Shown here: positions 20,359 to 56,469 of the stretch, in pieces
How positions within the stretch are numbered: position 1 is the first letter of the stretch
Layout: each line of letters begins with the position of its first letter
Assembly (NCBI GenBank): GCA_019456305.1
Contig: VRUD01000017.1
Span: 1-58,990 of the forward strand
Source: Cytophagales bacterium
GTDB lineage: Bacteria > Bacteroidota > Bacteroidia > Cytophagales > VRUD01
Direction of reading: 5' to 3'
DNA length: 58,990 nucleotides
The notes under the pieces: generated by a model
What the model was told of the DNA's origin: nothing
What the model saw: the letters and a program-made list of their open reading frames with translations, nothing else
Databases searched by the model: none
Made by a program: the position numbers and the translations under genes

Positions 20359-21570
20359 ATGTCTAAACATTCAATTCTATTTGTCGGTTCATTTAAGAAG
20401 GAAGGTAAAGATGGTAGCATAGGGGGTACCATGGTTGCATGTAGATCACTCGTTGAAAGCAAACTTTCCCAATATGTTCATTGGCATTTGATTGATAGTA
20501 CATCGGATACGGTACCTGCACCTGTAATGTATAAAAGACTTTTTAAGGCAATTAGCAGAATTTACAGGTTTATTTATTTAATCAATAATAAGAAGATTAG
20601 AATCGCATTGGTTTTTTGTAGTTCCGGATTCAGTTTTGTTGAGAAAGGAATAATGATACTAATTGTAAAATTGTCCGGGAAGAAAACAATTTTTAGTCCC
20701 CGTTCAGGATTGATCATAAATGATATTGAAAATTCTTCGTTTATGAAGTGGTTTGTCGCAGTAGTGATCAGATCTTCAGATTTAGTAATATGTCAAAGTA
20801 ATAGCTGGAAAAATATTTATCAATCAATATCCGGAGAAGATGATAGCAAATTTCAGGTGATCAGTAATTGGATAAATTCTAAAGAATATACCAGCCCCAG
20901 CCCCCCTGCCTCCCGCAATGCTGGCCCAATGTCCACTGGACATCGTCCTCCCCAAAGGGGGGACTTTACCACCCCAATTGCCAAAGGCAAAAGCGAGGGC
21001 AAAGCCCCCGCCTCGGGGGGGTTGGGGGGGGCTAATATATTATATTTAGGATGGATAGAAATATATAAAGGAATTTATGACCTGATAAAAGCGGTTGAGT
21101 TAAATAAATCAGACTTTAAAAACTGCTTATTCCATATATGTGGAATGGGTTCTCAGATAAATTCTGCAAAAAAGCTTGTAAATGAATTAGGACTTGACAA
21201 GAGAATAATTTTCAAAGGCTGGGTCGGCCCTGAGAAGAAACTAGCTATGCTGAAAAGCAGTGATATTTTAGTTTTGCCTTCACATAGAGAGGGGCTTCCA
21301 AACGCTCTTTTAGAAGCTATGGCAGTTGGTCTGCCGGTCATTGCTTCCAAAGTAGGAGCTATTCCTGAAGTAATTAAACATGGTGAAAACGGCCTCTTAT
21401 TTGATGCAAAAGATCATAAAACTTTATCCCGGTTGCTTATATCATTGATTGTTGATCGAAATAAAAGAAAAGTTTTAGGCCAAAAAGCACGTGAACATAT
21501 TTTAAAACATCATGATATTGAAAAAGTCTGGAAAATATTTTTAGAGCTTTTTGATAAACTGGATCCATAA
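20359..21570 (+). CDS. Glycosyltransferase family 4 with a repeat-encoded insert
   Basis: This GT-B enzyme has 403 residues. The acceptor domain begins ILFVGSFKKEGKDGSIGGT. The donor domain holds ILYLGWIEIYKGIYDLIKAV, FKGWVGPEKK and the EX7E motif in HREGLPNALLEAMAVGLPVIAS. Residues about 179-225 are a Pro/Gly/Ser-rich insert encoded by a palindromic DNA element (20893-21033), placed at the junction of the two Rossmann domains where a loop could tolerate it. Without it the protein would have about 356 residues, the normal size. It is the last gene of the polysaccharide locus. Confidence 0.85.
   Translation: MSKHSILFVGSFKKEGKDGSIGGTMVACRSLVESKLSQYVHWHLIDSTSDTVPAPVMYKRLFKAISRIYRFIYLINNKKIRIALVFCSSGFSFVEKGIMILIVKLSGKKTIFSPRSGLIINDIENSSFMKWFVAVVIRSSDLVICQSNSWKNIYQSISGEDDSKFQVISNWINSKEYTSPSPPASRNAGPMSTGHRPPQRGDFTTPIAKGKSEGKAPASGGLGGANILYLGWIEIYKGIYDLIKAVELNKSDFKNCLFHICGMGSQINSAKKLVNELGLDKRIIFKGWVGPEKKLAMLKSSDILVLPSHREGLPNALLEAMAVGLPVIASKVGAIPEVIKHGENGLLFDAKDHKTLSRLLISLIVDRNKRKVLGQKAREHILKHHDIEKVWKIFLELFDKLDP
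20893..21033 (+). repeat. In-frame palindromic element inside the GT4 gene
   Basis: The 141-bp (47-codon) segment starts AGCCCCAGCCCCCC and ends with a matching G-rich inverted end (GGTTGGGGGGGGCT). It contains the palindrome ATGTCCACTGGACAT at 20929-20943. A 43-bp core (20911-20953) matches 38070-38112 in apbE at 40 of 43 positions. The reading frame is kept and no stop is created. The local GC content is far higher than the flanking gene. Confidence 0.85.
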
Positions 21571-22031
21571 TCCACTAATTGGACGTATCGCCTGTCTGCC
21601 ACCCGCCTGCCAATTTGCGGGCAGGCAGGCAGGGAATTTCAATCCCGAATGCTCGGGACGAATTACACTAATTTGCACGAATTAAATTAACTTTGACATA
21701 ATCCCATAGAAATAATTGGCTTTAGTTTAATATAGCGTGTTAAACTGTATCTTACCTCTGTAAACGTACACGAAATTGATAAAATCGGTCCCGAGTACTC
21801 GGGAGCAATCGGCAAAAAGGCAAAATTGATAAAGTATCCAGTCGGCAGTCCACAGTCCCCAATCGGCAAAAAACAATTGCCGACTGCTCCCGAGTACTCG
21901 GGATGGACTGCCGACTAAAGACTGTGGACTGCCGATTGCCGACTGCAGATTGTGGACTGCCTACTGCCGACTGAAGATTGCCGACTTAAAGGTATTCAAG
22001 GCAATTTTGTGTAATTAGTGGCTATATTTTC
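21571..22031. repeat. 460-bp composite repeat region, no gene
   Basis: The gap between convergent genes is entirely repeat material. It is bounded by CCACTAATT (21582) and AATTAGTGG (about 22012-22020). Inside are a GGCAGGCAGGCAGGG palindrome and three TCCCGARTRYTCGGGA palindromes at 21643-21658, 21789-21804 and 21888-21903. A 70-bp unit at 21718-21788 is repeated at 32287-32355. An array of degenerate CGGCAGTC/GGACTGCCGAC units runs from 21836 to 21990. No coding potential was seen. Confidence 0.75.
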
Positions 22032-24570: not shown

Positions 24571-24590
24571 TTTATGGAAAGTATTTATAA

Positions 24591-32234: not shown

Positions 32235-32523
32235 AACAGACTTGAATGATCTAAACCACTAATTACACGAATTTCACTAATAAAAGGCTTTAGTTTAATA
32301 TAGCGTGTTAAGCTGTATCTTAGCGCTGTAAATGTACACGAAATTGATAAAATCGGCAGTCTCCAGTCGGCAATCAGCAGTCTGCAAAAAGGCAAAAAAC
32401 AATTGAGTCCCATCAGAGTCCCCTTTTTAAGATAGTAATATGTTTGAATTTAGGATTTCCGGTCCCGAGTACTCGGGATGATTGTACTAAGTAGGGGCAA
32501 AATTCTTTCCACCGGGTTACCAT

Positions 32524-32674
32524 TGGGAGTCCCACTTATGGGAGTCCCACTTCCCGTGGGGCTCCCAATCAAGGGATTGGCAATCCTTTATTCGGAGCCC
32601 CACTTGGAGTGGGACTCCGAGAGTCGGGCTCCCAATAGGGGACTATGGCAATCTTCATTCGGAGCCCCACTTGG
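32524..32674 (+). repeat. 151-bp long repeat, copy 1 (inverted at 51.8 kb)
   Basis: The segment is identical, base for base as I read it, to the reverse complement of 51805-51955. It is built from short palindromic units such as GGGAGTCCCACTT and GGAGCCCCACTTGG. Open frames across it in either direction come from the repeat and are not genes. Confidence 0.9.
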
Positions 32675-32708
32675 GCAGAGACGCCCAAATTGGGCGTCTC
32701 TGCCCAAG
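32670..32708. repeat. 39-bp near-perfect palindrome
   Basis: Two 19-bp arms, CTTGGGCAGAGACGCCCAA and its exact complement, surround a single A at 32689. It overlaps the right end of the 151-bp repeat. It has no T-run, so a terminator role is doubtful. It resembles the other palindromic units in this gap. Confidence 0.8.
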
Positions 32709-32855
32709 TATCACCTCTTAAAAGATTTTTTTAGGGGGAGAAGAAGATTTTTTATTTTTTTTCTTTTGTCTTTTGCGGAGGGGCAGCCACACTTATTTGA
32801 TCCCGAATATTCGGGACTGGCAAATGTGTTTAGCTGCGAAGAGTGGGCTTTCTTC

Positions 32856-34025
32856 TTAATTGTTCAATATTATTATCTGTTTATTAATTACTCCTTTATT
32901 ACTTATTAGTTGGAGATTATAGACGCCAACCGGATACTTGTTTAAATCAAGTTGCTTTTCATAGATGCCTTTAAATTGTTTTAGCTTCTCTCTAAATAAT
33001 ACCTGTCCTAAGTTGTTGACAATTTTTAGCTCTAAATTTTCTGCTTGCCCGCCTGCCGAACGGGCAGGTGTTATGTTCATTACAATATTGAACTCGCCGG
33101 TATTGGGATTGGGATATATTTTTAAAATACTGCATCCTGAACAAATTGCGGCAGATGTTGGAATTGTTGCCGGGGTACCATTTAACAATCTTGCAATCCG
33201 GTTTCTCCCTGTCCCATTATAGGAAGTGAACCAGCCACCGATAATAATTTTCCCATCGCTTTGTATAGAGGTTGTCAAGACATCATCGTTTGCTCCTGTG
33301 CCAACATTAAAAGTACTGTCAAGGGTACCATCGGTATTGAGGCGGGCAATACGGTTTCTCGATATTCCATTATAGAAAAAGAAGTCACCACCGATAATAA
33401 TTTTCCCATCGTTTTGTATAGAGGTTGTAGAGACACTAAAGCTTGCTCCCGTACCAACGGTAAAAGTACTGTCAAGGGTACCATCCGCATTGAGGCGGGC
33501 AATACGGTTTATGGCTGTTCCATTATAGGAAGTGAACAAGCCACCGATAATAATTTTCCCATCGCTTTGTATAGAGGTTGTCAAGACATAACCGTTTGCT
33601 CCCGTACCAACGGTAAAAGTTCCGTCAAGGGTACCATCCGCATTGAGGCGGGCAATACGGTTTATTGCTGTTCCATTATAGGAAGTGAACTGTCCACCGA
33701 TAATAATTTTCCCATCGTTTTGTATAGAGGTTGTCTGGACAGTCCAGTTTGCTCCAGTACCAACGGTAAAAGTACTGTCAGGGGTACCATCCGCATTGAG
33801 GCGGGCAATATAATTTCTTGCTGTTCCATTATAGGAAGTGAAATCGCCACCGATAATAATTTTCCCATCGCTTTGTATAGAGGTTGTCCGGACAGTACTG
33901 TTTGCTCCATCCCCAAAACCAAAGCCGATGTCTGTGGGGTTAAAGGAGGGGTCAATGGAGCCGGGTTGGGCTTTTGCACAAAAAATTATGTGCAAAAACA
34001 AGGATAAGAATAGAAGTTTTTTCAT
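32856..34025 (-). CDS. Delta-60 repeat protein with type IX secretion signal
   Basis: The 389-residue secreted protein has a signal peptide (LLFLSLFLHIIFCAKA). Five to six 51-residue delta-60 repeats follow (each with DGKIIIGG, SYNGT and IARLNADGTLD-like segments), likely a beta-propeller. The C-terminal T9SS sorting domain starts near YPNPNTGEFNIV and ends in IILNN. At DNA level the units recur every 153 bp (33235 to 33847). The substrate or partner is unknown. A palindromic insert at 33045-33070 adds PARSAGGQ within the sorting domain. Confidence 0.88.
   Translation of the reverse strand: MKKLLFLSLFLHIIFCAKAQPGSIDPSFNPTDIGFGFGDGANSTVRTTSIQSDGKIIIGGDFTSYNGTARNYIARLNADGTPDSTFTVGTGANWTVQTTSIQNDGKIIIGGQFTSYNGTAINRIARLNADGTLDGTFTVGTGANGYVLTTSIQSDGKIIIGGLFTSYNGTAINRIARLNADGTLDSTFTVGTGASFSVSTTSIQNDGKIIIGGDFFFYNGISRNRIARLNTDGTLDSTFNVGTGANDDVLTTSIQSDGKIIIGGWFTSYNGTGRNRIARLLNGTPATIPTSAAICSGCSILKIYPNPNTGEFNIVMNITPARSAGGQAENLELKIVNNLGQVLFREKLKQFKGIYEKQLDLNKYPVGVYNLQLISNKGVINKQIIILNN
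33045..33070. repeat. In-frame palindrome in the type IX sorting domain
   Basis: An inverted repeat with CCTGCC/GGCAGG arms around GAACG lies in the coding sequence and encodes PARSAGGQ. The sorting-domain consensus does not normally include this stretch. The same CCTGCC...GGCAGG family occurs at 1173-1195, 21600-21632, 35325-35355 and 38900. Confidence 0.55.
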
Positions 34026-34969: not shown

Positions 34970-35130
34970 ATAAAGTTAATAACAGTTAATAACAGTTAAC
35001 AACAGTTAACAACGGTTGCTTAAAACACTGCTTTTTTGCAATATGCTCCTTTTTTTCAAGATTAAGCATATGAAAAAGTAACCGATATTAACCATTATTA
35101 ACCGCTATTAACTGTTTTTAACCATTTACA
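34970..35130. repeat. TTAAC-type degenerate repeat array
   Basis: About ten spaced AGTTAATAAC/AGTTAACAAC units on one side, and ACCGATATTAACC-like units on the other, fill this stretch. The same family occurs at 43340-43530. The units resemble half-sites and form inverted pairs. No gene lies in the 280-bp gap 34927-35207. Confidence 0.6.
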
Positions 35131-35207: not shown

Positions 35208-37484
35208 CTAAAATCTATAAAGACAAACCGGTCCCCTTTTAACAACGTCTATGTCACTGCAAAAAATTCTATCTTCTTTTTTAACAGGAGATTCCCCGCC
35301 TGCCATTGCGCTGTCTTTGCTTTGGCCTGTCCGCCAGACAGGCGGGCGGGCAGGCTCGCTTGCGCCATCGCTTTCTGCCAGCCTTGCACCCGGAATGACA
35401 AGCTCTTTATGAACACCCAATTTCACTTCGCTGCATAATAAGTAATCAAATCTCTTTTTTAAAAAAACAAGATCATCTTTTGTGTTAATGCTGTAAATTT
35501 TACCGTCTATAAGGATATGATCCGGCCTGGCAACAATCACCTCCAGATCGGGGCGTTTTATAAGGAAGGGAAACACCCAGTTCCAGCTATCTTCTGCTGC
35601 TAAAAACAGTAAACGCTTGCCTGGTTCTACCAGGTTGGTAAACCTTTTTACTACATCACTATGGTAGTGCATGTCATAATAGGCATCCCTGTTTAGCACA
35701 AAGTGAACCCAGGTAAAGATCACAGGCCCCGGATATACGAACCCAGCTTGCTTGCCCTCAAAATGACCTGTTATTCCCAACTTTTCTTTTATCAAATATC
35801 CCAACTCATAAATATTGATAAAGGGTTTCTTTATATTAAAAAGCGATGCGTAAAGCATGGTTAAAAGGGCAAGGAACAAGATAATGTTTTTGAGTTGCCT
35901 CGCTATCGTTTGAGAGGTTTTCGCAATAGCATAGGGTTGCCTCCCCGCCTTTGGCGGGGCCCGGGACAAGCTTTGCCACGTAAAAGCAATACATACCCCG
36001 CTTCCTCCAAAGAATAAAGCAAAAAAACGGCTGTTCCAGGGCATCCAGGCTACCGTATAGGAAAGGATCAGGAAGTAACATAAAAGCGAAAGTGAGATAA
36101 CACGAATAAATCCTTTTCCCTTGATCGAAGAATAAATTACAGCAGGTATTATTAAAATACCCAGCAGCCCGTACCATGAAAAATCCTCATCCGGAAAAGG
36201 TTTACCAGAAAGGTTAACCGGATAAAGCGCCCCCGTTGAGTTGTGATTACCCAGCATCTTATCATGGAATCCGGTTAGCAGATTTCCGCCAAGTTCTTCA
36301 GGCAGGTCAATTGCTTGTAAAACATACCTGCCTGCATTTATAGCGCCTCCTGCCAACCCATCTTGATTTATGTGCTGCTCTACACCAGCCCTTTCTCCCC
36401 AAATGCTGCCATAATTATTTAAATTGTTGTTCCAGAATACCATCAAACAAAAGATCAGCCCTAATGGTAATAAGAAAGATATTTTAGATAGAAATCTTCG
36501 TCCGGCCACTAAACGTTGGAAATAGGGAAGGAAAGTGGCCAGATTGAGTATCAGCGAAATCCCGATCTTATCGGGACGAATATTTCTTATTGTAAACAAC
36601 ATTTTTTTTATCCTGTACTCTTTTATCAATAACAGTGCATAGAAAAATAAAAATGGGACTAAAAATCCTAAGAAGTAGGCTTTTACAGATAATCCGAATA
36701 ATAAGGCGACAACAATGATATAAAAATTAGAATATTTTTTAGTAGAGTAAAAGTTAAGTGCAGCAAGGAAACATACAACCACAACAGCAGCCACAGGAAT
36801 ATCATTTTTTGTAGTCACAGCCTGCAGGATGAGTCCTGACAGAGAAGCGATAATGAAAGAGGTGGTTAAGCTTAAATTGGCATTATTGAAAATCTTCCTT
36901 ACCAGTCCGAAGGTGCCTGCTATCACTGCCGTATAGCTCAAAAAGCTAAAAACAGCAAGGCCAAAGTCTGAATAGAATCTTAAAAATAGAAAGGACAAAA
37001 TATCATATCCCCAGGGATGCATTACTTGCCGGTAAGTGCTGAAGTTTTTTAAAAACAAGCTTCCTTCTTCCTGGAACAACAGTACTCTTGCCAGGTTGTA
37101 AGTCAAGGCATCCCAGTTGCCGGGAGGCAAAAGAAAGGATTGTAAAAAAAGATAGCTTGAGACTGAAACTAAAATGAATGATATGGCCTTATTTGTCTTG
37201 CAAAATTGAACAGACTCTTTGAATGAGTCGAAAATGATCTGTTTATTCTTCCGGATCTGAAAAAATGAAAAAGCCAGAATACCAAAGTCAAAGAAATAAT
37301 AATATTGATGGATTCTTAATAGAAAGAACAACTGGATGGATAAAGAATAAGTTGCAAAAATTAATATAATGGAGTAAACATATGATTCAGGTGTGGTGTA
37401 TTTTTTTTTTCTTAGAAGAGAAAAAACGGCAAGGATAGCTATGAATATTTCAAAGATGACCAAGGATGATAGAAATAGGTTCAT
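35208..37484 (-). CDS. GT39-like polytopic membrane glycosyltransferase
   Basis: The 758-residue protein has about 12-14 transmembrane segments. An early periplasmic-type loop has NWDALTYNLAR and MHPWGYDILSF, the region that holds the catalytic acid in GT39/PMT-2 enzymes. It may transfer sugars from polyprenyl phosphates to protein or lipid. At least three palindromic repeats lie in frame (35325-35355, 35943-35959, 36560-36576), including one in the soluble C-terminal tail. The family assignment comes from topology and one motif. Confidence 0.6.
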   Translation of the reverse strand: MNLFLSSLVIFEIFIAILAVFSLLRKKKYTTPESYVYSIILIFATYSLSIQLFFLLRIHQYYYFFDFGILAFSFFQIRKNKQIIFDSFKESVQFCKTNKAISFILVSVSSYLFLQSFLLPPGNWDALTYNLARVLLFQEEGSLFLKNFSTYRQVMHPWGYDILSFLFLRFYSDFGLAVFSFLSYTAVIAGTFGLVRKIFNNANLSLTTSFIIASLSGLILQAVTTKNDIPVAAVVVVCFLAALNFYSTKKYSNFYIIVVALLFGLSVKAYFLGFLVPFLFFYALLLIKEYRIKKMLFTIRNIRPDKIGISLILNLATFLPYFQRLVAGRRFLSKISFLLPLGLIFCLMVFWNNNLNNYGSIWGERAGVEQHINQDGLAGGAINAGRYVLQAIDLPEELGGNLLTGFHDKMLGNHNSTGALYPVNLSGKPFPDEDFSWYGLLGILIIPAVIYSSIKGKGFIRVISLSLLCYFLILSYTVAWMPWNSRFFALFFGGSGVCIAFTWQSLSRAPPKAGRQPYAIAKTSQTIARQLKNIILFLALLTMLYASLFNIKKPFINIYELGYLIKEKLGITGHFEGKQAGFVYPGPVIFTWVHFVLNRDAYYDMHYHSDVVKRFTNLVEPGKRLLFLAAEDSWNWVFPFLIKRPDLEVIVARPDHILIDGKIYSINTKDDLVFLKKRFDYLLCSEVKLGVHKELVIPGARLAESDGASEPARPPVWRTGQSKDSAMAGGESPVKKEDRIFCSDIDVVKRGPVCLYRF
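35325..36576. repeat. Three in-frame palindromes in the GT39-like gene
   Basis: Within the gene, GCCTGTCCGCC/GGCGGGCAGGC lies at about 35325-35355, CCCCGCC-TTT-GGCGGGG at 35943-35959 and TCCCGAT-CTT-ATCGGGA at 36560-36576. Each keeps the reading frame. Near the third, the protein reads RPDKIGIS between two hydrophobic segments. Each is the same type of palindrome that occurs between genes elsewhere in the window. Confidence 0.55.
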
Positions 37485-37720: not shown

Positions 37721-38884
37721 TCATTCTTCAATAATTATGCCTTCCAATCCTTCTGTCATAAAAGAGTTTATTTTCCCTTTATCATCCTCAAAAATAAAAT
37801 ATGCTTCCAAGTCATCCCTGTGTTTTATAATTTCAATTGCTTTATCTTTACCCACCACCATGAATGCCGTAGCGAAAGCATCAGCGGTCATGCAATCTTC
37901 GGCAAATACGGATACGCTTAACAAATTGTGCTCTACAGGATATCCGGTTTTGGGGTCAATCGTGTGTGCGTATTTTAACCCTTCTTTGATATAATAATTA
38001 CGGTAATTCCCGGAAGTAGCGATGGCTTTGTTATCAAGCTTGAAAGCCACCCTAAACCCCAAGCCCCCATCCCGCAATGCTGGCTCGATGTCCACTGGAC
38101 ATCGCCCTCCCCCCGAATCGGTGAATCGGTGAATCGATGAATCGGTGACTTGCCTCCCCCGTTTCTCCGTTTCTCCGTTTCTCCGTTTCTCCGATTCAGA
38201 GGGACTTGGGGGCATGGGGGGGCTGATGATGCCTATTGTCCAGACTTTTCCATCTTTATTTTTTCCCATGCAAGCTACCTCTCCCCCTATTTCTACGAGG
38301 TAGTTATCAATATTACGAGACCTTAAAAAAGCCGCTATTACATCTACACCATACCCTTTTGCTATGGCGCTAAAATCAAGCATGAAGCCAGGTTTGGGTT
38401 TACGAATTGACAGGCTATCGAAATATATGCTATCAAAGCACACGTATTGTAATAGAGAGTCCACAGCGTCACTATCGGGCATTTCTGCTTCTATAAATCC
38501 AAAACCCCAGGCATTGACAAGCGGCATCACCGTTGGATCAAAGGCGCCTTTAGTATAATGGAATACCTCGTAGCTTTTTTGCAGTACAGGATAAAAATAG
38601 GTTGATGAAAATTTGTGTATGGAGTCATTGTTATTAAATAGTGAGATCTCTGATTCGGCAATATAGGTGGATAAAGCATTATTGAAATCTACCAGTAACA
38701 AATCTATTTCTTTTTTAAAAATTGTTCCACTCTTTCCGAAATATTTTATGGAATAGTAGGTTCCCATAGTGGTTCCATTAATTCCAACAAGTTGTTTCCG
38801 TGATTTCCTGTAGTAGTAAACAATAACCATTATCAGGATCAGGACAATGGGGTAGATTTTGCTTTTGTGGGGGAATTTTGCCAT
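37721..38884 (-). CDS. apbE: FAD:protein FMN transferase (ApbE)
   Basis: This enzyme attaches FMN covalently to target proteins such as NqrB, NqrC or RnfG. The 387-residue product has an N-terminal membrane anchor (residues 10-22), the family motif GTMGTYYSIKYFG, a metal-binding SAIAKGYGVD and IATSGNYRNYY. A later stretch reads HTIDPKTGYP. About 55 residues between IGIISPP and VAFKLDNKAIATSG are encoded by a palindromic insert and are not part of the family. No Nqr or Rnf genes are visible. Confidence 0.9.
   Translation of the reverse strand: MAKFPHKSKIYPIVLILIMVIVYYYRKSRKQLVGINGTTMGTYYSIKYFGKSGTIFKKEIDLLLVDFNNALSTYIAESEISLFNNNDSIHKFSSTYFYPVLQKSYEVFHYTKGAFDPTVMPLVNAWGFGFIEAEMPDSDAVDSLLQYVCFDSIYFDSLSIRKPKPGFMLDFSAIAKGYGVDVIAAFLRSRNIDNYLVEIGGEVACMGKNKDGKVWTIGIISPPMPPSPSESEKRRNGETEKRGRQVTDSSIHRFTDSGGGRCPVDIEPALRDGGLGFRVAFKLDNKAIATSGNYRNYYIKEGLKYAHTIDPKTGYPVEHNLLSVSVFAEDCMTADAFATAFMVVGKDKAIEIIKHRDDLEAYFIFEDDKGKINSFMTEGLEGIIIEE
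38050..38222. repeat. In-frame palindromic element inside apbE
   Basis: The insert starts and ends with C-rich and G-rich inverted ends (CCCCAAGCCCCC and GGGGGCATGGGGGG). It contains GATGTCCACTGGACATC at 38087-38103 and a 43-bp core (38070-38112) that matches the GT4-gene element at 40 of 43 positions. It also has four GTTTCTCC repeats and four GAATCGGT-like repeats. On the coding (minus) strand it encodes RCPVDIEPALRDGG and an Arg/Ser/Thr-rich stretch, with no stop. Confidence 0.85.
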
Positions 38885-41170: not shown

Positions 41171-42583
41171 GTGTACAATTTTAATACTGCATTCATAATC
41201 TTGCTTTGTTGTCCTTTTACTTCTTGTGTTGTTGACAACAGAAGTTTGAGTAACAGAGATATCGCTTATCTGTATAATGAAAATACCTACTTAACTTGTA
41301 ATTGCCTTTCATTAAATGAAAAAGATAGTATAAATGTTTACTTGAAGCTTACTATTCAACATAAAATGAAAGGTGTTCAGGCCAGAGATTTTAAGATATT
41401 TTATTGGCTGACTAATGATTATCGAAGCAGTAATATAATTTTATCGGATACTTTCAGATTAAAATTTGAGCTCAATCCGGATGCCGGTTCCTTACAACAT
41501 AAATATATTTCATTTAAAATTCCGAAATCAAAACCTGTCACGCCTGCCTCCCCGGGTTACCCGGGGGGGACAAAGTCTGAGAGCTCATTGGGGGGCGAAA
41601 GCGGGAAAACTACAGATGCATTACTGATTATTGGAATAAAAGAAGTAGATAAATATACCTTTATTCCACGTAAGAGTGAAAGGTTCATCTGTGAGACTCC
41701 TGTAAATTTTGATAATAAATTTTCTGATAGATTTTACCTTTTTGATAAAACGGGCAAATATCCTTTGTTTAAAGATTACATCAACCCTGCTGATACGATA
41801 CAAATCTCCGAATCAAGCATTCCCGACTCCGTACCTCAGTCGGGATCTCCGATTCGCTCCGACCGGCAACCTGTAACCAGCCTGTATATTTATCATTATG
41901 ATCATAATTTTAAGCCGGCTCTGCCACCGATGGCGCGTGATCGTGATCATAGCGGCAGCTCTAAAACGTTGAAGATAGACACTGTTTATACCGTTCATTC
42001 TAATTCACTACTCATGTTCCCCAAAAAAGGGTTATATTTTGTACAACAAGATACAAATGGAAATGATGGTTTTTCTTTTTTAGTGTTAGATGGTAAGTAT
42101 CCAAAGGCAACAAAAGTCAAAGACCTGATTGAACAGCTTATTTATATTACCACTAAAGAAGAAAGAAAACGATTGATCAATTCCAAACATCCCAAGTTAG
42201 CTTTAGATGATTTTTGGATTGATATCGCCCGTAATGAAAATTATGCACGCAGGCTCATAAAATTATATTATAACCGGGTAGAATTTGCCAATCGTAATTT
42301 TACATCCTATAAAGAAGGATGGAAGACAGACCGGGGGATGATCTATATAATCTATGGAAGGCCTGAAGAAGTATATAAGTTTGATGATAAAGAAAAATGG
42401 ATCTATTCAAGGTATGTGATCAACCAGTGGGATGCCCGTCCATTCCATGAGGAATTATCCTTTACATTTGTTCATAAAGCCAATATTTTTTCCGGCAATC
42501 ATTATGAATTGATAAGGTATCCTTCATATCAAAGAGAGTGGTATTCTGAGGTTGAGCAATGGAGGAAGGGAATGTTGAGGTAA
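41171..42583 (+). CDS. GWxTD-domain lipoprotein
   Basis: The 470-residue protein starts at GTG 41171 with a lipoprotein-like signal (FIILLCCPFTSC). The GWxTD domain is near the C-terminus (KEGWKTDRGMIYIIYGRPEEV, about residues 380-400). The family is found in Bacteroidota and is of unknown function. Two palindromic repeats in the middle add low-complexity stretches (about residues 124-145, SPGYPGG, and 216-230, SIPDSVPQSGSP). It ends 13 bp before the rlmB ATG. Confidence 0.82.
   Translation: MYNFNTAFIILLCCPFTSCVVDNRSLSNRDIAYLYNENTYLTCNCLSLNEKDSINVYLKLTIQHKMKGVQARDFKIFYWLTNDYRSSNIILSDTFRLKFELNPDAGSLQHKYISFKIPKSKPVTPASPGYPGGTKSESSLGGESGKTTDALLIIGIKEVDKYTFIPRKSERFICETPVNFDNKFSDRFYLFDKTGKYPLFKDYINPADTIQISESSIPDSVPQSGSPIRSDRQPVTSLYIYHYDHNFKPALPPMARDRDHSGSSKTLKIDTVYTVHSNSLLMFPKKGLYFVQQDTNGNDGFSFLVLDGKYPKATKVKDLIEQLIYITTKEERKRLINSKHPKLALDDFWIDIARNENYARRLIKLYYNRVEFANRNFTSYKEGWKTDRGMIYIIYGRPEEVYKFDDKEKWIYSRYVINQWDARPFHEELSFTFVHKANIFSGNHYELIRYPSYQREWYSEVEQWRKGMLR
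41550..41845. repeat. Two in-frame palindromes in the GWxTD gene
   Basis: CCCCGGGT-TACCCGGGG at 41550-41566 and TCCCGACT...AGTCGGGA at 41821-41845 lie inside the coding sequence. Both keep the frame and encode Pro/Ser/Gly-rich peptides. The second contains the TCCCGA...TCGGGA ends of the intergenic palindrome family. Confidence 0.6.
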
Positions 42584-42596
42584 TTGAGGATTGAAA

Positions 42597-43343
42597 ATGG
42601 AAAATATAAAATTAATATATGGCATAAGACCTGTTCTTGAAGCTCTTACTGCAGGTAAGGAAATTGATAAACTGTTTATCAAAAGTGGATTCAACAATGA
42701 AAAAATAACAGAGCTTATAAAATTAGCACAAAAGCTGAAAATCCCTGTTTTAAATGTGCCTGCTGAAAAATTAAACCGGTTAACAAAAGGAAATCATCAA
42801 GGGATTGTCTGCATTATTTCACCAATAAATTTTGCTTCACTCCATCACATTATTGATGAAACTTTCCGGAGCGCTCAAAATCCACTTTTATTGATCCTTG
42901 ACAGGATAACAGATGTAAAAAATTTCGGGGCTATAGTACGAAGTGCAGAATGCGCTGGTGTAAATGCCATTATAATACCTGGTAAAGGAAGCGCCAGTAT
43001 CAATGCTGATGCTGTCAAAACATCTGCTGGCGCTTTGAACTATTTGCCGGTATGCAGGACCAATAACCTGCTATCAACCATTGAGTACCTGAAAGACAGC
43101 GGTTTACAGGTAATAGCTTGTACGGAAAATGGTGATAAATATATCTATGACACAGATTTTCGTGATCCGGTAGCAATTATATTGGGTTCGGAAGAATATG
43201 GTATTCATCCGCAATATACTAAATTGGCAGATTCAACTGTAAAAATCCCACTATCAGGAAAAATCGGATCTTTAAACGTCTCTGTAGCTGCCGGAATTGT
43301 TATTTATGAAGTAGTGAGGCAAAGGATATACAATCTGGGTTAA
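42597..43343 (+). CDS. rlmB: 23S rRNA 2'-O-methyltransferase, RlmB-type
   Basis: This is a SpoU/TrmH SPOUT methyltransferase that modifies a G in the 23S rRNA peptidyl-transferase centre. The 248-residue product (ATG at 42597; a TTG at 42591 is also in frame) has IYGIRPVLEAL at the N-terminal substrate domain. The knot motifs are DRITDVKNFGAIVRSAECAGV, AIILGSEEYGIHPQY and KIPLSGKIGSLNVSVAAGI. All catalytic features are present. Confidence 0.93.
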   Translation: MENIKLIYGIRPVLEALTAGKEIDKLFIKSGFNNEKITELIKLAQKLKIPVLNVPAEKLNRLTKGNHQGIVCIISPINFASLHHIIDETFRSAQNPLLLILDRITDVKNFGAIVRSAECAGVNAIIIPGKGSASINADAVKTSAGALNYLPVCRTNNLLSTIEYLKDSGLQVIACTENGDKYIYDTDFRDPVAIILGSEEYGIHPQYTKLADSTVKIPLSGKIGSLNVSVAAGIVIYEVVRQRIYNLG

Positions 43344-43535
43344 TAGCAGTTAAAAACGGTTAAAAATGGTTGCAACGGAAATCCCATTTCAAAAAGTAAC
43401 TGGTATTAACCGATATTAACCTTTGTTAACTGATATTAACTTTATATAAGTTGGATAGAGAAGGTAAATGGAAAACCCGTTTCAAAAAGTAACCGTTATT
43501 AACCGTCTATTAACCAATATTAACCAATATTAACT
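43344..43535. repeat. TTAACCGATAT-type repeat array
   Basis: Two related halves each run CATTTCAAAAAGTAAC or CGTTTCAAAAAGTAAC and then a series of GTATTAACC/GATATTAACC units (43367-43440 and 43474-43530). They resemble the array at 34970-35130. A TACTTTTG box at 43566-43573 lies 40 bp before the symporter ATG and may be its -7 element. Confidence 0.6.
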
Positions 43536-47505: not shown

Positions 47506-47572
47506 ATGAAACCACTAATTACACGAATTACACAAATTAAATTAGTGTAATTCGTGTAATTAGTGGTTTCAT
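47506..47572. repeat. Perfect 28-bp-arm palindrome of the CCACTAATT family
   Basis: Bases 47506-47533 are exactly the reverse complement of 47545-47572, with an 11-base A/T spacer. The arms contain ACCACTAATT, ACACGAATT and ACAC. It is the most complete copy of a family seen in pieces at 1078-1214, 21582, 22012 and 32255. It lies between two operons and has no T-run, so a terminator role is not convincing. Confidence 0.85.
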
Positions 47573-48707: not shown

Positions 48708-50072
48708 ATGAATATTTTAGTCCTCGGCTCAGGGGGCAGGGAGCATGTTCTTGCCTGGAAGCTATTGCAAAGCAGAAAATTTCACGCTGCAGGTGACCAC
48801 GCGGAAGGTGGTAAAAAACTGTTCGTAGCTCCGGGTAATGCCGGCACGCAACAAATAGCTCAAAACATCTCAATTGATGTAAATGATTTTGAGAAAATTG
48901 CCTCTTTTTCAAAGCAAAACGATATTGATATGATCGTTGTTGGACCGGAAGCGCCTTTGGTTGAAGGAATTTGGGATTATTTTAATGATAATGATGATTT
49001 GAACAATATTAATATTATTGGTCCAAGTAAACTAGGCGCGCAATTGGAAGGAAGTAAGGATTTTGCCAAAAATTTCATGCGTAAATATGGCATACCAACG
49101 GCAAAGTCTAAAACTTTCACGAAGGACTCTTTACAGGAGGGATTGGAATATATAGAATCGCATGATGCATGGCCCCGCCAACTGGCGGGGCATATCGTAT
49201 TAAAAGCAGACGGATTAGCTGCTGGCAAAGGGGTGATCATTGCAGATTCGATCCATAGTGCAAAAAGAACATTTAAAGAAATGCTCACCAATGAAAAGTT
49301 TGGCAAAGCAAGCGCTAAAGTGGTAATAGAGGAATATCTTGATGGCATAGAGGTGTCTGTCTTTGCGATCACAGATGGACGCAGTTATAAGCTGCTGCCG
49401 GAAGCTAAGGATTATAAGCGTATTGGTGAGGGAGATACTGGGCCGAATACGGGTGGTATGGGCGCTGTTTCACCGGTACCATTTGCTGATAAAAATTTTA
49501 TGAGCAAAGTTACAGAGCGGATTGTTGATCCGACTATAGAGGGACTGCAGCAGGAAAATATTGATTACTGCGGCTTCATTTATTTTGGTCTGATGAACGT
49601 AAACGGTGATCCTTACGTTATTGAATATAATGTAAGACTTGGCGACCCGGAAGCCGAAGTGGTTTTACCAAGAATAAAAACAGACCTTATGGATATTTTT
49701 TATGCTGCAGCTGAAAACAGGTTAAGTGAAATTAATATTGAATTTGATGAGCGAACCGCTGCTGCCGTTATGTTAGTATCAGAAGGATATCCGGGGAAAT
49801 ATTTAAAAGGAAAAGAAATTACAGGCCTTGAAAGAATGACGAATGACGAATTACGAATTACGAATAATTCTTCATTCGTAATGGCTTTTCATGCAGGTAC
49901 TACAACGAATGGCAACGGCAAGGTGATCACAAACGGGGGAAGAGTATTGGCGTTATCAGCCTTGGGTTCAAATATGAAGGAAGCGCTGCATCTCTCTAAT
50001 GCAGCGGCAGAAATGATTGACTGGGAAGGTAAATATTACAGGAAAGATATAGGATTTGATTTGACAAATTAA
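48708..50072 (+). CDS. purD: Phosphoribosylamine-glycine ligase with repeat inserts
   Basis: This is the second step of purine synthesis. The 454-residue product has the GARS N-terminal motif ILVLGSGGREHVLAWKL, APGNAGTQQIAQN, GPEAPLVEGIWD, ATP-grasp segments ADGLAAGKGVIIA, and GGMGAVSP. The family length is about 425-430. The additional residues come mainly from two palindromic inserts: DAWPRQLAGH (about 151-160) before the GARS grasp loop, and a stretch near residues 379-391 in the C-terminal domain. Key catalytic segments are not interrupted, so it should be active. Confidence 0.95.
   Translation: MNILVLGSGGREHVLAWKLLQSRKFHAAGDHAEGGKKLFVAPGNAGTQQIAQNISIDVNDFEKIASFSKQNDIDMIVVGPEAPLVEGIWDYFNDNDDLNNINIIGPSKLGAQLEGSKDFAKNFMRKYGIPTAKSKTFTKDSLQEGLEYIESHDAWPRQLAGHIVLKADGLAAGKGVIIADSIHSAKRTFKEMLTNEKFGKASAKVVIEEYLDGIEVSVFAITDGRSYKLLPEAKDYKRIGEGDTGPNTGGMGAVSPVPFADKNFMSKVTERIVDPTIEGLQQENIDYCGFIYFGLMNVNGDPYVIEYNVRLGDPEAEVVLPRIKTDLMDIFYAAAENRLSEINIEFDERTAAAVMLVSEGYPGKYLKGKEITGLERMTNDELRITNNSSFVMAFHAGTTTNGNGKVITNGGRVLALSALGSNMKEALHLSNAAAEMIDWEGKYYRKDIGFDLTN
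49172..49191. repeat. In-frame palindrome 1 in purD
   Basis: Two 9-bp arms, GCCCCGCCA and TGGCGGGGC, flank AC. The palindrome encodes the extra WPRQLAG peptide, which I do not recognise from normal PurD sequences. It is of the same CCCCGCC/GGCGGGG type as 35943-35959. Confidence 0.7.
49834..49882. repeat. In-frame repeat 2 in purD
   Basis: Three ACGAATTACGAAT-like direct units are followed by ATTACGAAT (49857-49865) and the reverse complement ATTCGTAAT (49874-49882). It encodes RMTNDELRITNNSSFVMA in place of a short family loop before FHAGT. Confidence 0.65.
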
Positions 50073-51091: not shown

Positions 51092-51232
51092 CGCTTTAGT
51101 TATTAGTTTATTAGTTTTTAGTTATGGTTGATTGGTTACTTGTTTTAGTTTTTTGGTTTATCAAAACTAATGACAATTGATCTAAAATTAACAAACTAAA
51201 ACCAAAAACTAACAAACTAATAACCATTATCG
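51092..51232. repeat. Inverted AACTAAAACC-type repeats before gldH
   Basis: The 141-bp gap has TTATTAGTTTATTAGTTTTTAG near its start and AAAACCAAAAACTAACAAAC near its end, which are partial inverted repeats with loose matching. It resembles the repeats at 48610-48670. No gene or clear promoter was seen. Confidence 0.5.
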
Positions 51233-51712: not shown

Positions 51713-51804
51713 AAAGTAAAAAGGAAAAAGGAAAAAGTGAATTTATACTTTTTACTTTTTACTTTTTACTTGACGATTAACAGTTGACAAATTAGTTACT
51801 TGCT

Positions 51805-51955
51805 CCAAGTGGGGCTCCGAATGAAGATTGCCATAGTCCCCTATTGGGAGCCCGACTCTCGGAGTCCCACTCCAAGTGGGGCTCCGAATAAAGGATTGCC
51901 AATCCCTTGATTGGGAGCCCCACGGGAAGTGGGACTCCCATAAGTGGGACTCCCA
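51805..51955 (-). repeat. 151-bp long repeat, copy 2 (inverted)
   Basis: This is the exact reverse complement of 32524-32674, about 19.1 kb away. It lies 92 bp after gldH and 18 bp before the duplicated sensor-gene start. The 51713-51804 stretch before it holds AAAAAGTAAAAAGG-like repeats only. Confidence 0.9.
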
Positions 51956-51972
51956 TTAGCAATTTTTGCCTA

Positions 51973-52253
51973 CCGTTATCTTCTATTTTGCCCAATTTTA
52001 AAATCAATTGAACAAGTTAATAAACATACTCCAAAACCCCCTCTTTATAGCTCTCGTAGTTGCCGCTATTATTATCCCCTTTTTACCTCAGTCCTTTGAC
52101 AAATACAAAATGGAACTTGTTGACAGTGAAACAGTTTATGTATCACCGGACAAAAAATCATGGAATATTATTCTTTACAACGACCTTGACAATGACGGGA
52201 AAAGTGAGAAAGTTCGCTGCGGTTTTAGCCCCATTCTACAGTTACTTTTGTAA
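51973..52253 (+). pseudogene. Truncated duplicate of the sensor gene's start
   Basis: This is a copy of 53622-53876, including about 35 bp of upstream sequence and the first roughly 70 codons (TTG at 52008). The protein begins MNKLINILQNPLFIALVV with few changes (SFDKYKMELVDSETVYV versus TFDKYKMELIDSQTALV). After GCTGCGG (52217-52223) it diverges and stops. The downstream gene retains the complete sensor. The two copies flank the DUF1016 nuclease gene like direct repeats around an insert. Confidence 0.85.
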
Positions 52254-52315
52254 ACATAATTAAGGAATTTAAAGTAAACAATTTCAAAAATTGGGAACAC
52301 TATATAAACTTTTAC

Positions 52316-53398
52316 ATGGCTAAGAAAAAAAACGAGATATCGTCCAACCAAAAATACACGGAACTGCTTGCCTCCATTGGTTTTGCTATTGAAATGGGTC
52401 GTGAAAACGCTTTGGCAGCTATTAATGAGCGGTTACTTGCTACCTATTGGAAAATCGGCCAATACATTGTTGAATTTGAGCAACACGGACTTGAAAGGGC
52501 TGAATATGGGACTGAATTATTAAAGGATTTATCTAATGACCTAAAAATGCGTTATGGCAAAGGATTCAGCGTGAGCAATTTACAATATATGCGGTTGTTT
52601 TATCAATATTACCCAAAATTCCAGAAGTCTGGAAAATTCCAATCGTCTGAAATTCACCAGACGTCTGGTAAATCTCAAAAATACCAGACATCTGGTAAAT
52701 TGACCTGGTCGCATTATTGTGAATTACTTGGCATTTCGGACGACCTGACCAGGAGTTTCTATGAGAAACAATGCAGTAAAGAAAATTGGTCGGTAAGAGA
52801 GCTAAAAAGACAGATAATTTCAGGACTTTTTCAACGGATCGCATTAAGCAAAGACAAAGAAGGGGTTTTAAAGCTATCCACTCACGGACACGAAATTGCG
52901 ACAACAAAGGATATTGTAAAAGACCCATATGTATTTGAGTTCCTGAATATTCCGGAAAGCAAGAGAGTTTCTGAAAAAGCACTGGAAAAGAAGCTGCTTG
53001 ACAACCTGCAAACATTTCTTCTTGAACTTGGAAAAGGATTTTCATTCGTTGCCCGACAATTCAGAGTAACCATTGATAATGACCATTTTCACGTTGACCT
53101 TGTATTTTATCACCGAATCCTAAAATGCTTTGTATTGATTGACCTGAAAATCAGAAAAGTCAAGCATCAGGACATAGGACAAATGAATCTTTATCTGAAT
53201 TATTTTATAGAAGAAGAAAACACAGAAGGCGACAATGCACCAATTGGCATTATCATTTCAGCAGACAAGAATGAGCTATTGGTAAAATATGCAACAGGTG
53301 GCCTTTCAAATAAGATATTTGTTTCAAAATACCAGCTTTACCTCCCGGACAAAAAATTACTTGAGAATAAAATGAAGGAAATATTAGAAAAAGAATAG
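52316..53398 (+). CDS. DUF1016 (YhcG-like) PD-(D/E)XK nuclease
   Basis: The 360-residue protein has the DUF1016 N-terminal helical domain (NERLLATYWKIGQYIVEFEQ, SNLQYMRLFYQ) and TWSHYCELLGISDD. A C-terminal PD-(D/E)XK domain contains FHVDLVFYHRILKCFVLIDLK (Asp, Asp/Lys). In between (about residues 102-127) is a repeated, variable stretch (QKSGKFQSSEIHQTSGK) encoded by three CCAGA-TCTGG palindromes. Members are associated with mobile elements and defence loci. It is flanked by duplicated DNA. Confidence 0.88.
   Translation: MAKKKNEISSNQKYTELLASIGFAIEMGRENALAAINERLLATYWKIGQYIVEFEQHGLERAEYGTELLKDLSNDLKMRYGKGFSVSNLQYMRLFYQYYPKFQKSGKFQSSEIHQTSGKSQKYQTSGKLTWSHYCELLGISDDLTRSFYEKQCSKENWSVRELKRQIISGLFQRIALSKDKEGVLKLSTHGHEIATTKDIVKDPYVFEFLNIPESKRVSEKALEKKLLDNLQTFLLELGKGFSFVARQFRVTIDNDHFHVDLVFYHRILKCFVLIDLKIRKVKHQDIGQMNLYLNYFIEEENTEGDNAPIGIIISADKNELLVKYATGGLSNKIFVSKYQLYLPDKKLLENKMKEILEKE
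52619..52696. repeat. Three in-frame CCAGACNTCTGG palindromes in the DUF1016 gene
   Basis: TTCCAGAAGTCTGGAA (52619-52634), ACCAGACGTCTGGT (52656-52669) and ACCAGACATCTGGT (52683-52696) occur at about 27-37 bp spacing and encode the QTSGK-type repeats. The stretch falls between the two domains. Confidence 0.7.
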
Positions 53399-53513
53399 CC
53401 GCATTTCGCAGCCACATGAAGAAAATATACCCCCTAAAAAACAAAATTTTTTGGTATTTGGTATAAAATAACTGTATTTCGGCAGACAGAAATTTGCCCT
53501 AAAACAAGGGCTA

Positions 53514-53614
53514 TAAGCAATAGCGGTTGACGAAAAAACATGTATCTTTACACTTTCAATATGCGGTTGGTTTTTGGGACAGGTGCGTAGTTCTTAAACC
53601 GCAACGAAACATAT
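53514..53614 (+). repeat. GCGGTT-type element, copy A
   Basis: Roughly 100 bp that match copy B (56722-56829) at about 65-70% of positions. The most conserved parts are GCGGTTGACGA near the left end, a second GCGGTT in the middle, and GTAGTTCTTAAACCGCAACG near the right. The two GCGGTT sites can pair with AACCGC. It lies between the DUF1016 gene and the start of the sensor gene. It follows a GCCCT-AAAACA-AGGGC hairpin (53496-53511) that may end the DUF1016 transcript. Confidence 0.65.
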
Positions 53615-53656
53615 GCGCGTCCCGTTATCTTCTATTTTGCCCAATTTTAAAATCAA

Positions 53657-55816
53657 TTGAACAAGTTAATAAACATACTCCAAAACCCCCTCTTTATAGC
53701 TCTCGTAGTTGCCGCTATTATTATCCCCTTTTTACCCCAAACCTTTGACAAATACAAAATGGAACTTATTGACAGCCAGACGGCTCTTGTTACACCGGAC
53801 AAAAAATCATGGAGCATTGTTCTTTACAACGACCTCAACAATGACGTGAAAAGTGAGAAAGTTCGCTGCGGTATTTTATCCTTGCAATCACCAGGGAGTT
53901 ATGATTATTTCATTCTATCTGACAATAAAGATGGCGTAATATGCCAGTTGAATTTCACAACCCGCTTGCATCGCCGCAGCAGGGTGTCATTTGGTGACTG
54001 CGACAATAACGGGTTCAATGAAATATACTTTTTTACTTTCAGGAACGACTCCATTTTTATTCAGCGCTTTATTGACCCCTACAAAGGAAAAGGATGCGAA
54101 GGAAAACTTACAAAACCCAAATACGTTGACAAAGTATGGAAAAATAATAAAAATGAGATTGGCGGAATTTCGGAAGCCAAATTCTATGATTTGAATGGCG
54201 ATGGATACAAAGAAGTGATTTTTAGTATCCATACCGGTTTTGCACAACAGCCCCGTAATATGTATGCTTATGATATAATCAATGACACCATTTTGAAATC
54301 TCCTCAAAGTGGTGCTCACAGTGGTTATGGCAGTCCAATTTTCTATGATTTGAATAATGATGGGGAAATTGAAATTATTAAGGGCTATACTGCAGCTGGT
54401 AATTTGCCGGAAGATTTTCCGTATTCAGACAACAGCGCCTGGCTGATGGTCTTTGACAATAAGTTAAATTTTTTCTTTGACCCGATTGAATTTCCCCTGT
54501 TTCAATCCAATGTACTAGCAGTTCCATACAGAATAAAAGGCGAGACATTCATTGCTGTTTTATACCGGTATACCGGAACAGAAAATATAAAGCCGGCTTT
54601 ATATCTATATAACATCAAAGGAAAGAAAGTAAAAGAAAAAATATTACCTGAAGCATATAACTGGAAAGCACTAAACATCATATCACTTAATTCAGAAAAA
54701 AGAGACAGATTGTATTTAATTGATTTCAAAGGAAATATAGAACAATTAAATGAAGAATTTGAAACAATAAATGAATATAAAATTGAACCGCTAGTGCACT
54801 CCTTTCCGCACTTTATTGATGCAGACGGTGATGGGGAAGATGAACTGTGTTTTTTTAGCGAGGACATGCAAAGGATCATTATCGTCCGCAACGATTTTTC
54901 GCATCCCATTGCCGCGGATGTACCGAATACAGGGGGTCATTTAGCATTGGAAATTAAACGAAACGGAGACCTGCACCCCAATATTTTCGTACAGCGGGGT
55001 GCAAACCGCTACATGTTCAGCTACCTCCCCAACCCGCTGTATTACCTCAAATACCTGATATACGCAGGCATCTGGCTGGGGCTGTCGCTGTTCATATTCG
55101 GAGTTCAAAAGGCAGGGGCCTATAAGTTAGAACAGGACAAAAAGAAGCTTGAGCATACGGTTAAAGAAAGAACCGCAGAAGTTATGACGCAAAAAGAAGA
55201 GATATTAACGCAAAATGAGGTATTGGAAAGTCGAAAGGAAGAGTTAGAAACAATGAATATTGAATTAGATAAGCTTTCATTAGTAGCGAGAAAAACAGAC
55301 AACTACGTGATAATTACCGATAAAGATGATAAAATTGAATGGGTTAATGAGGGGTTTACACGCATTACGGGTTTTAAACTGAAAAACGTTATAGGCCAGC
55401 ATCCCTCCGTTATTTTAAGAGGCGATGGTACAGACCCTGAAGTGGCAAAAAAAATTGATAAAATGGCAAAAACAAAAAAGCCATTTACATCAGAAATTCT
55501 CAATTACAATAAAAAGGGTGAGCCGGTTTGGCTTTATACTAACGTTACTCCGGTATTAGATGATGCCGGTGAAATTATACGATATATTTCAGTTGGTAGT
55601 GATATTACTGAACGCAAAAAAGCGGAAGAAAAGATCAAACAACAAAACAAAAACATCACCGACAGCATTCACTACGCAGAACGGATTCAAAAGGCAATCT
55701 TACCTTCAGATGAGTACATCAGGGAAATACTCTCGCCTGTTGAAGATGTAGGCTTTTTTATATTGTATAAGCCAAAGGATATCGTGAGTGGTGATTTCTA
55801 TTTTTTTAAAAGGTGA
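53657..55816 (+). pseudogene. Sensor part of a SpoIIE-type phosphatase (frameshifted)
   Basis: The 719-residue frame begins at TTG 53657. It has a transmembrane helix (residues 11-27), a periplasmic FG-GAP/VCBS-like region with DxDxDG loops (near 114, 178, 231 and 388), a second helix (463-483), a coiled coil (488-545) and a PAS domain (about 545-665). The start of a SpoIIE domain follows and breaks at GDFYFFKR-stop. The SpoIIE domain resumes at 55813 one frame back. One added A in the AAAA run at 55808-55811 would join both parts. Confidence 0.8.
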
Positions 55817-56469
55817 GGGATACTACTGTAATAGCCGCCTGTGATTGCACGGGGCATGGCGTACCGGGCGCCTTTATGAGCATGATAGGCAGCCGGTTGC
55901 TTGATGACATCGTATATGACAAAAAAGTCACTGATGCAGCTCAGGTATTAAATCAACTCCGCAAGGGTGTGATACACGCGTTTGGCAAGGCAGGGGCTAC
56001 AGGCAAGCAGCAGGATGGTATGGATATGGCGCTAATAAGTTTAAAGTTTAGAAAAAGCGATGCCATCGCTACGAGCGATGGCATCGCTACACTGCAATAC
56101 GCAGGTGCATACAATCCTCTTTATATCTTTCGGAATATAAAAAACAGCGATAATGCGAATGGTTTGGAGGTAATAAAAGCGGACAGACAGCCTGTTGGTT
56201 ATTATGGAGATAATGAAAAACCTTTTACCAACCACCACCTGCAACTGCGAAAGGGAGATACTCTTTACATTTTTTCAGATGGCTATCAAGACCAGTTTGG
56301 TGGATCTGAGGGGGGGAAATTCAGTCCCGGTCAATTCAGGGAACTGTTATTTTCTGTGCAGGATAAGAAGATGTCTGAACAACATGACGTCCTTGATAAA
56401 ACTATTGAGGACTGGAAAGGAAATGAAGAGCAGCTTGATGATATATTGGTGATTGGGGTGAGGATATAA
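55813..56469 (+). pseudogene. SpoIIE phosphatase part of the same gene
   Basis: This frame (218 codons from GTG 55813) contains VIAACDCTGHGVPGAFMSMIG and GMDMALISL, then LQYAGAYNPLYIF and DTLYIFSDGYQDQFGG. These are the metal-binding and catalytic motifs of PP2C-like SpoIIE serine phosphatases. It has no start signal of its own and completes the upstream frame. An 11-codon palindrome (56056-56088) lies within it. If the break is a sequencing error, the gene is one 930-940-residue sensor phosphatase. Confidence 0.8.
56056..56088. repeat. Perfect 15-bp-arm palindrome inside the SpoIIE domain
   Basis: AGCGATGCCATCGCT (56056-56070), ACG, and AGCGATGGCATCGCT (56074-56088) are perfect inverted repeats. 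They encode SDAIATSDGIAT between LKFRK and LQYAGAYN, where related proteins have a short turn. The inserted length is 33 bp (11 codons), so the frame is kept. Confidence 0.85.

Follow-up and report, generated by a model that had tools for sequence, protein, structure and literature searches.

Hairpin-forming repeats lie in frame within many conserved genes of a Cytophagales bacterium and probably behave like the palindromic elements of Rickettsia

How a protein gene can harbour a palindromic repeat and still be read from end to end is the question raised by a 58,990-nucleotide stretch of a Cytophagales draft genome (contig VRUD01000017.1 of assembly GCA_019456305.1), referred to here in its entirety as the window. 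An initial annotation of the window, made from the sequence alone, proposed that palindromic repeats lie in frame within at least eight of its protein genes. The analyses described here bear out the presence of such repeats within protein genes and extend it past the window into the rest of the genome, where the main element, a GC-rich hairpin of about 100 bp with the ends AGCCCCCC...GGGGGGCT, to which some copies add a 47-bp module, recurs in many conserved genes. We consider it very probable that these elements are selfish hairpins resembling miniature inverted-repeat transposable elements (MITEs), and that they act in the manner of the Rickettsia palindromic elements and are translated in place. 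As envisaged, a non-autonomous, hairpin-forming DNA would insert into the chromosome; an insertion within a gene would survive when its length is a multiple of three and its frame is free of stops; and the gene would then be translated straight through, such that the element would give rise to a short protein insert rich in proline, glycine, serine and lysine.

The main element is composed of two modules. The B module is an imperfect inverted repeat of about 100 bp bearing the AGCCCCCC and GGGGGGCT ends, and the A module, 47 bp in length, is found at one end in some copies, oriented forward in 14 cases and in reverse in 13. The same terminal inverted repeats are present in copies with both ends recognisable, and inspection places the ends of the element at AGCC..GGCT; in some copies, though not in all, the inner ATGTCCACTGGACAT hairpin is followed by the tetranucleotide CGTC. 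ATGTCCACTGGACAT is the core of a 43-bp stretch (family D17) that is common to the GT4 glycosyltransferase and apbE genes of the window and is read in opposite directions in the two. Exact matches to this core occur at 29 places in the whole genome, 27 of them within an open reading frame (ORF) of at least 193 amino acids, and when HemF and ApbE serve as queries in translated searches, copies of their inserts turn up throughout the genome, many of them inside long open frames. Each arm of the B module (arm sequence AGCCCCCCTNANTCCCCCC) contains a small palindrome, TCCCCCCnnnGGGGGGA. Twenty-two copies were aligned, and in pairs of arms no more than 130 bp apart the loop triplets of the two arms are complementary in 19 of 20 pairs (AAA/TTT in 14, GAA/TTC in four and GGA/TCC in one) and mismatched in the remaining one. 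Such covariation is expected if source copies need a long hairpin in order to spread, and suggests that the element moves, or moved in the past, as a hairpin; the manner of its spread is not told by it. When three copies were folded, two B copies yielded z scores of -7.2 and -12.9.

An alternative origin for these sequences dispenses with a mobile element altogether and holds that C-rich and short-unit tracts have arisen and been propagated by slippage, template switching or gene conversion in loops where a change of length is tolerated. The ends of the element seem, by eye, to grow in steps of 12 nt (AGCCCCCCTAAC), copies are mosaics of modules, tandem arrays of 7- and 8-nt units are found among the in-gene repeats, and the lack of an adjoining transposase or target-site duplication, detailed below, points in the same direction. 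However, copies of up to 147 bp fit one model end to end in unrelated genes on several contigs, the A module is found in both orientations, and slippage does not move a 47-bp non-repetitive module from one gene to another. We regard this explanation as improbable.

In-frame placement of the main element was assessed in 824 kb of sequence (19.4% of the 4.2-Mb genome), comprising known copy places together with a systematic sample. A profile search, with hits merged at E below 1e-4, located 69 element places in this sequence, which constitute a non-random sample in that many stretches were chosen for containing a copy. At 63 of these, an open frame runs through the element within a long ORF, where a place was accepted only with at least 100 amino acids outside the element, 15 before it and 5 after it. 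Because about 88% of the genome is coding by the gene calls made here, this criterion alone is passed by most native sequence, and the weight of the observation lies on the inserts being dispersed. Codon usage, scored separately for each flank, agrees between the two sides on the best frame at 60 of the 63 places. The surroundings of the other six places have low coding scores (with a maximum of 5.9, on a single flank of one of them), and thus no gene-breaking copy of the main element has been seen; broken insertions have presumably been purged by selection. The initial annotation had held that inserts should be enriched for lengths divisible by three, and this is the case: where both ends of an in-gene copy can be recognised, the distance from AGC to GCT is a multiple of three in 36 cases of 38 (the other 31 places being unmeasurable in this way or outside genes), with 20 different multiples represented between 84 and 177. 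The two copies of odd length nevertheless lie in an open frame, which suggests that their true ends are probably different.

These lengths bear upon a second alternative, namely that RNA excision takes the inserts out of the transcript or that the ribosome skips them, as would be the case for inteins, introns or bypass elements. The position of the inserts in conserved enzymes and the strong hairpin of two of the three folded copies would suit such a process, which would nonetheless need neither a length divisible by three nor a stop-free frame, and both are seen. As the two odd-length copies also remain in an open frame, excision or bypass appears very unlikely. Under translation in place, which we favour, the insert-bearing proteins would be both made and functional, a reading drawn from sequence.

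The element is carried by many conserved proteins. When 20 host proteins of the genome were scanned against Pfam, 19 could be assigned to a family; gene names that go beyond the Pfam labels reflect our own reading. The hosts include MiaB- and MtaB-type proteins, asparagine synthase, ArgS, MutL, ribonucleotide reductase, LigA, the large subunit of exonuclease VII, SecD and HemF, as well as SpoIIE, phosphomannomutase, a PrmC-like methyltransferase, AlaRS, PheRS beta, a GT4 enzyme, UvrA, a ceramidase and a further methyltransferase. In several of these the Pfam match is stretched or split at the insert: the Radical_SAM match of MiaB covers 216 residues as compared with a profile of 166 positions, and the LigA adenylation domain and HemF each match in two stretches. 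Of the two inserts in HemF, one of 13 amino acids is missing from all 18 homologous loci, and one of 54 is wholly gapped in 15 of the 18, with a single residue present in the other three.

Within the window, inserts were evaluated by alignment to homologous loci from relatives of the same order, with gapped positions recounted exactly, and by the depth of BLAST matches in the genome itself as a score for dispersed copies (Table 1). Homologues that lack the DNA repeat also lack the corresponding residues in purD, apbE, hemF, SpoIIE and GWxTD, in agreement with what the initial annotation had anticipated for true insertions. In apbE, residues 228-272 are gapped in 14 of 14 homologues (four further loci having been dropped as below the similarity cut), alignments to PDB entries are interrupted between about residues 224 and 282, and the surrounding positions 38045-38227 reach a depth of 62. 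The GT4 and GT39-like inserts are supported by own-genome copies and not by homologue alignment; the GT4 insert region (20897-21033) has a depth of 64, the open frame is continuous across it, and Pfam domains flank it at residues 56-174 and 227-379. For purD, in which two inserts had been claimed, alignment reveals three, and PDB alignments agree with their positions. The first is without palindromic appearance and without a second copy in the 824 kb; the second lies within a region (49159-49198) of depth 5; and the third, of depth 8 (49834-49866), is wholly gapped in 17 of 19 homologues, the remaining two having one or two residues there. The 10-residue SpoIIE insert (residues 83-92) is gapped in 22 of 22 homologues, and positions 56058-56086 show a depth of 1, with the motif also found at two ORF places of contig C4. 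The GWxTD inserts are wholly gapped in 12 (residues 120-142) and 13 (residues 217-232, depth 1) of 14 homologues, the others having one to seven residues there; one weak locus, L284, was excluded from this alignment.

Table 1. In-frame repeats and inserts of the window, with one palindrome located between genes. Positions are those of the window.
Feature	Position	Strand	Basis
Composite element (A and B modules), 141 bp = 47 codons, in GT4 glycosyltransferase gene 20359-21570	20893..21033	+	Own-genome copies
Repeat EPARPPVWRTGQS in GT39-like gene 35208-37484	35320..35355	-	Own-genome depth 5
Repeat LSRAPPKAGRQP in GT39-like gene	35936..35968	-	Own-genome depth 1
45-aa insert in apbE (37721-38884, minus): 8-nt repeat array and A module	38069..38203	-	Homologues, PDB, depth
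23-aa insert in GWxTD gene (41171-42583), DNA with CCCCGGGTTACCCGGGG	41528..41596	+	Homologues, residues 120-142
16-aa insert in GWxTD gene with TCCCGACT..AGTCGGGA	41819..41866	+	Homologues, residues 217-232
Intergenic AT-rich 67-bp palindrome	47506..47572	.	Family kept outside genes
10-aa insert HAAGDHAEGG in purD (48708-50072)	48783..48812	+	Gapped in 19/19 homologues, residues 26-35
7-aa insert in purD with palindrome GCCCCGCCAACTGGCGGGGC	49170..49190	+	Gapped in 19/19 homologues, residues 155-161
10-aa insert TNDELRITNN in purD, 7-nt repeat type	49839..49868	+	Homologues, residues 378-387
Palindrome pair of ACCAGACGTCTGGTA type in DUF1016 gene 52316-53398	52651..52701	+	Stem-loop scan
Palindrome AGCGATGCCATCGCT..AGCGATGGCATCGCT in SpoIIE phosphatase ORF 55813-56469	56056..56088	+	Homologues

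Six of the eight genes originally named thus retain their inserts, namely GT4, apbE, purD, SpoIIE, GWxTD and the GT39-like gene, in the last of which two of three proposed repeats are upheld by own-genome copies and the third is not; the peptide of the first recurs in an ORF of contig C5. The remaining two genes were not confirmed: the type IX delta-60 gene contains ordinary 153-bp repeats (33193-33909), which we take as normal protein repeats, and the DUF4476 gene has but a single 23-bp match, of depth 2, in its own genome. A ninth gene, that of DUF1016, was absent from the original list, and its palindrome pair has no other copies in the 824 kb. The stem-loop scan by which it was recognised found 32 stem-loops scoring at least 9 in the window, as compared with 9, 7 and 10 in three Markov-resampled controls, and a top score of 30, as compared with 10 and 11 in two further controls; ten stem-loops score at least 12, and several lie inside genes. 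Placement of the inserts at surface-loop positions, as initially suggested, is plausible; single-sequence AlphaFold models, with a mean predicted local distance difference test (pLDDT) score of 34.1 for apbE and 39.8 for purD, were not used.

The SpoIIE locus has additional features. The sensor/PAS ORF at 53657-55816 stops after GDFYFFKR, and the remaining SpoIIE domain is encoded by ORF 55813-56469, which overlaps it by 4 bases beside a poly-T run. Many other SpoIIE matches of the genome are found within ORFs of 600-1400 amino acids, and the junction between the two ORFs corresponds to the position of elements in some other SpoIIE genes. Right at the SpoIIE stop codon, positions 56468-56631 are occupied by an array in which a 14-nt unit, AATCGGCAGTCGGC, is present in 11.7 copies.

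Related sequences extend beyond this genome, and the two modules differ in this respect. None of 58 other genomes from the order contains a 19-mer of the A module at up to one mismatch, and a 26-mer has one match among GTDB 220 contigs, at the end of an ORF in the Flavobacteriales metagenome-assembled genome NORP27, in a search that may exclude records of the source genome itself; the A module thus appears rare, and it is the B-module arm that other families share. At the DNA level, the B module has matches, mostly over the arm, in at least 18 other genomes of the 295 searched in the class (own genome included), a lower bound given that no more than three candidates per genome were scored. In 12 of these 18, a search with the arm pattern identified 38 places in eight genomes representing six families, and 27 of 30 loci read lie in a long open frame, while three do not. 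Ten host proteins from elsewhere in the class were scanned, and the types recovered include IleRS, GuaA, PanC, RNase H1, GatB, MeaB and SpoIIE, with one protein remaining without a family. In an E1-type dehydrogenase gene (bkd-like by our reading), the arm is found at the same place in two genomes of different families, where homologues differ from one another in both length and sequence; 14 of 30 homologous loci could be read at this position, and 12 of the 14 are without the arm. That the repeats are an artefact of assembly or binning is scarcely credible: the draft does comprise 159 contigs and many repeats, but 63 in-frame places and like placement in eight other genomes of six families stand against it.

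One of the other genomes, G065, the sole representative of its family in the search, displays a pattern of its own. Seven copies (L209, L213, L216, L219 and L223-L225) are positioned 21-41 residues into the frame, after an apparent hydrophobic leader, and two of the seven directly precede a cysteine.

A typical B module offers two stop-free frames on each strand, and the choice between them is not even. Where the gene strand leaves at least two frames open, 29 of 35 copies use the one that starts at AGC, as compared with 16.2 expected (P = 7e-6), and another count, covering 57 of the 63 copies, assigns 38 to the AGC frame and eight to a different one, leaving 11 unassigned. Mean hydropathy is -0.82 in the frames used and -0.39 in other open frames; the most hydrophilic frame is the one used in 22 of 32 copies with two open frames and in two of 11 with three. 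Selection for a hydrophilic peptide was considered as the cause of this bias and is not established, and an insertion preference for codon boundaries is conceivable. Targeting of genes was likewise considered. In simulations in which real copies were inserted at random and broken genes removed, the share of copies in genes reached 0.82 if every length was divisible by three and 0.69 if the lengths were those measured, from which the observed 63 of 69 departs with P of 0.02 and 1e-5, respectively; if 60 of 69 is used instead, these become 0.17 and 5e-4. As random insertion and removal of broken genes already yields 0.82, targeting is unneeded, yet in-frame insertions must then be tolerated nearly everywhere. 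We put forward, tentatively and as rather less likely than its contrary, the further proposal that the family lives chiefly in protein genes, and not by accident: with two stop-free frames per strand, length variation in multiples of three and a single favoured frame, it would spread through housekeeping genes in several families of the class as a translation-adapted selfish DNA and a steady source of new protein loops.

Several observations weigh against the interpretation of these sequences as MITE-like hairpins tolerated within genes. Firstly, no mobiliser was found among Y1 transposases, the one family searched: of seven matches in the genome, the loci of five were read and none adjoins an element, only L199 contains one (about 1 kb away and in another ORF), and the two unread matches are weaker. 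Y1 transposases as mobiliser are thus unsupported. Secondly, the flanks of 39 copies, inspected by eye, provide no clear target-site duplication. Thirdly, no empty site from a close relative is available, as none of the 58 relatives searched belongs to the same family, and movement of the element is accordingly inferred rather than demonstrated. Additionally, the third of the folded copies, the GT4 composite of the window, folds poorly (z -1.4); nine of the 27 in-frame loci of other genomes, judged by their open frame, lie within 41 residues of the start of the frame, a region in which the actual start codon is in doubt; of 43 copies that offer a choice, only 24 use the most hydrophilic of the frames open on the gene strand; and the share of 63 in 69 places within genes barely exceeds that expected of random insertion with lengths divisible by three.

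Other repeats of the same genome display both in-gene and intergenic habits. The systematic sample of 400 kb, consisting of the first 20 kb of 20 contigs, contains 166 repeat segments, 54 within ORFs and 112 outside. The same best frame is found on both flanks in 45 of the 54. No fewer than eight of the 54 are ordinary protein repeats (contigs C3, C5 and C16), and eight of the 112 outside ORFs have coding-like flanks on both sides, six of these in different frames. Several other repeat families are also in frame within genes. The palindrome CCCGAGTACTCGGG is found at 28 places in ORFs and 40 outside, and CCCCGCCAACTGGCGGGG, with one mismatch allowed, at 19 places in the 824 kb, 11 in ORFs and eight outside. 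The AT-rich family that was counted is intergenic, as the arm of its window copy (Table 1) falls outside ORFs at 16 of 17 places. Small palindromes of other sequence lie near the Y1 genes (loci L198-L202), for example GCCCTGAAAGGGC in L199 and CGCTCCGTTAGGAGCG in L200, and perhaps represent systems of the type in which repetitive extragenic palindromic (REP) sequences are paired with REP-associated tyrosine transposases (RAYTs). The window further contains two blocks (32478-32709 and 51803-51956) of a distinct GC-rich palindrome family (GTGGGGCTCC..GGAGCCCCAC), a 259-bp direct repeat of 92% identity (51968-52226 and 53617-53875), arrays of a 10-nt unit of TAACCGATAT type in intergenic gaps (34970-35126 and 43338-43534), and an ORF (57650-58966) that, as we read its sequence, resembles a group II intron reverse transcriptase. 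TAACTGA repeats have been described in other bacteria (PMC4679880).

Comparison with known systems places the main element among several kinds of short palindromic DNA (see also PMC5771137). REPs, of which the GTAG and CGTC families are known and some are mobilised by RAYTs, also occur inside genes in several species, including DNA repair and tRNA synthetase genes, and CGTC repeats have been reported from Bacteroidetes (PMC3733652). The elements described here likewise involve short palindromes and overlapping types of host gene. REPs are, however, mostly intergenic and 20-40 bp in length by the same account (PMC3733652), whereas the present element measures about 100 bp, has AGCCCCCC/GGGGGGCT ends and lies apart from the five Y1 genes read. 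ERIC (enterobacterial repetitive intergenic consensus), Correia/NEMIS, YPAL and RU elements are non-autonomous, possess terminal inverted repeats and in some cases form in-frame fusions (PMC2229807); the present element shares with these MITEs its non-autonomous character, terminal inverted repeats and in-frame fusions and differs in that neither a target-site duplication nor, with Y1 transposases alone searched, a parent transposon was identified.

Rickettsia palindromic elements (RPE-1 to RPE-10) and their Wolbachia counterparts are described as palindromes about 100-150 bp long that occupy unrelated and often conserved genes in frame and leave the reading frame intact (PMC3767692, PMC2229807, PMC10969869). 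No description of in-frame palindromic inserts in Bacteroidota was encountered in the literature searched, which is weak evidence of novelty given that subscription papers and preprints lay mostly outside it. A Rickettsia-like mode of action would now be placed in Bacteroidota, at high density and in numerous housekeeping genes; eight further genomes from six families of the class possess related arms. The supply of protein loops by selfish DNA and the reason for one favoured reading frame would thereby become testable, and peptides such as SPPASRNAGPMSTGHRPPQRGDF or APLNPPKGG, as translated repeats, may mislead alignments and domain calls during annotation. The setting differs from that of Rickettsia and Wolbachia in its phylum, as read from gene content such as the GWxTD domain, in its 4.2-Mb genome and in the presence of several repeat families in one genome, and the share found within ORFs, 63 of 69 places in what is a non-random sample, compares with 'nearly half' of the RPEs according to PMC10969869. 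The likeness drawn by the initial annotation nonetheless fits as one of behaviour: as judged by analogy of action and not by common descent, the Rickettsia palindromic element appears the closest precedent, sharing with the element described here a palindrome of about 100-150 bp that lies in frame, free of stops, within unrelated conserved genes.

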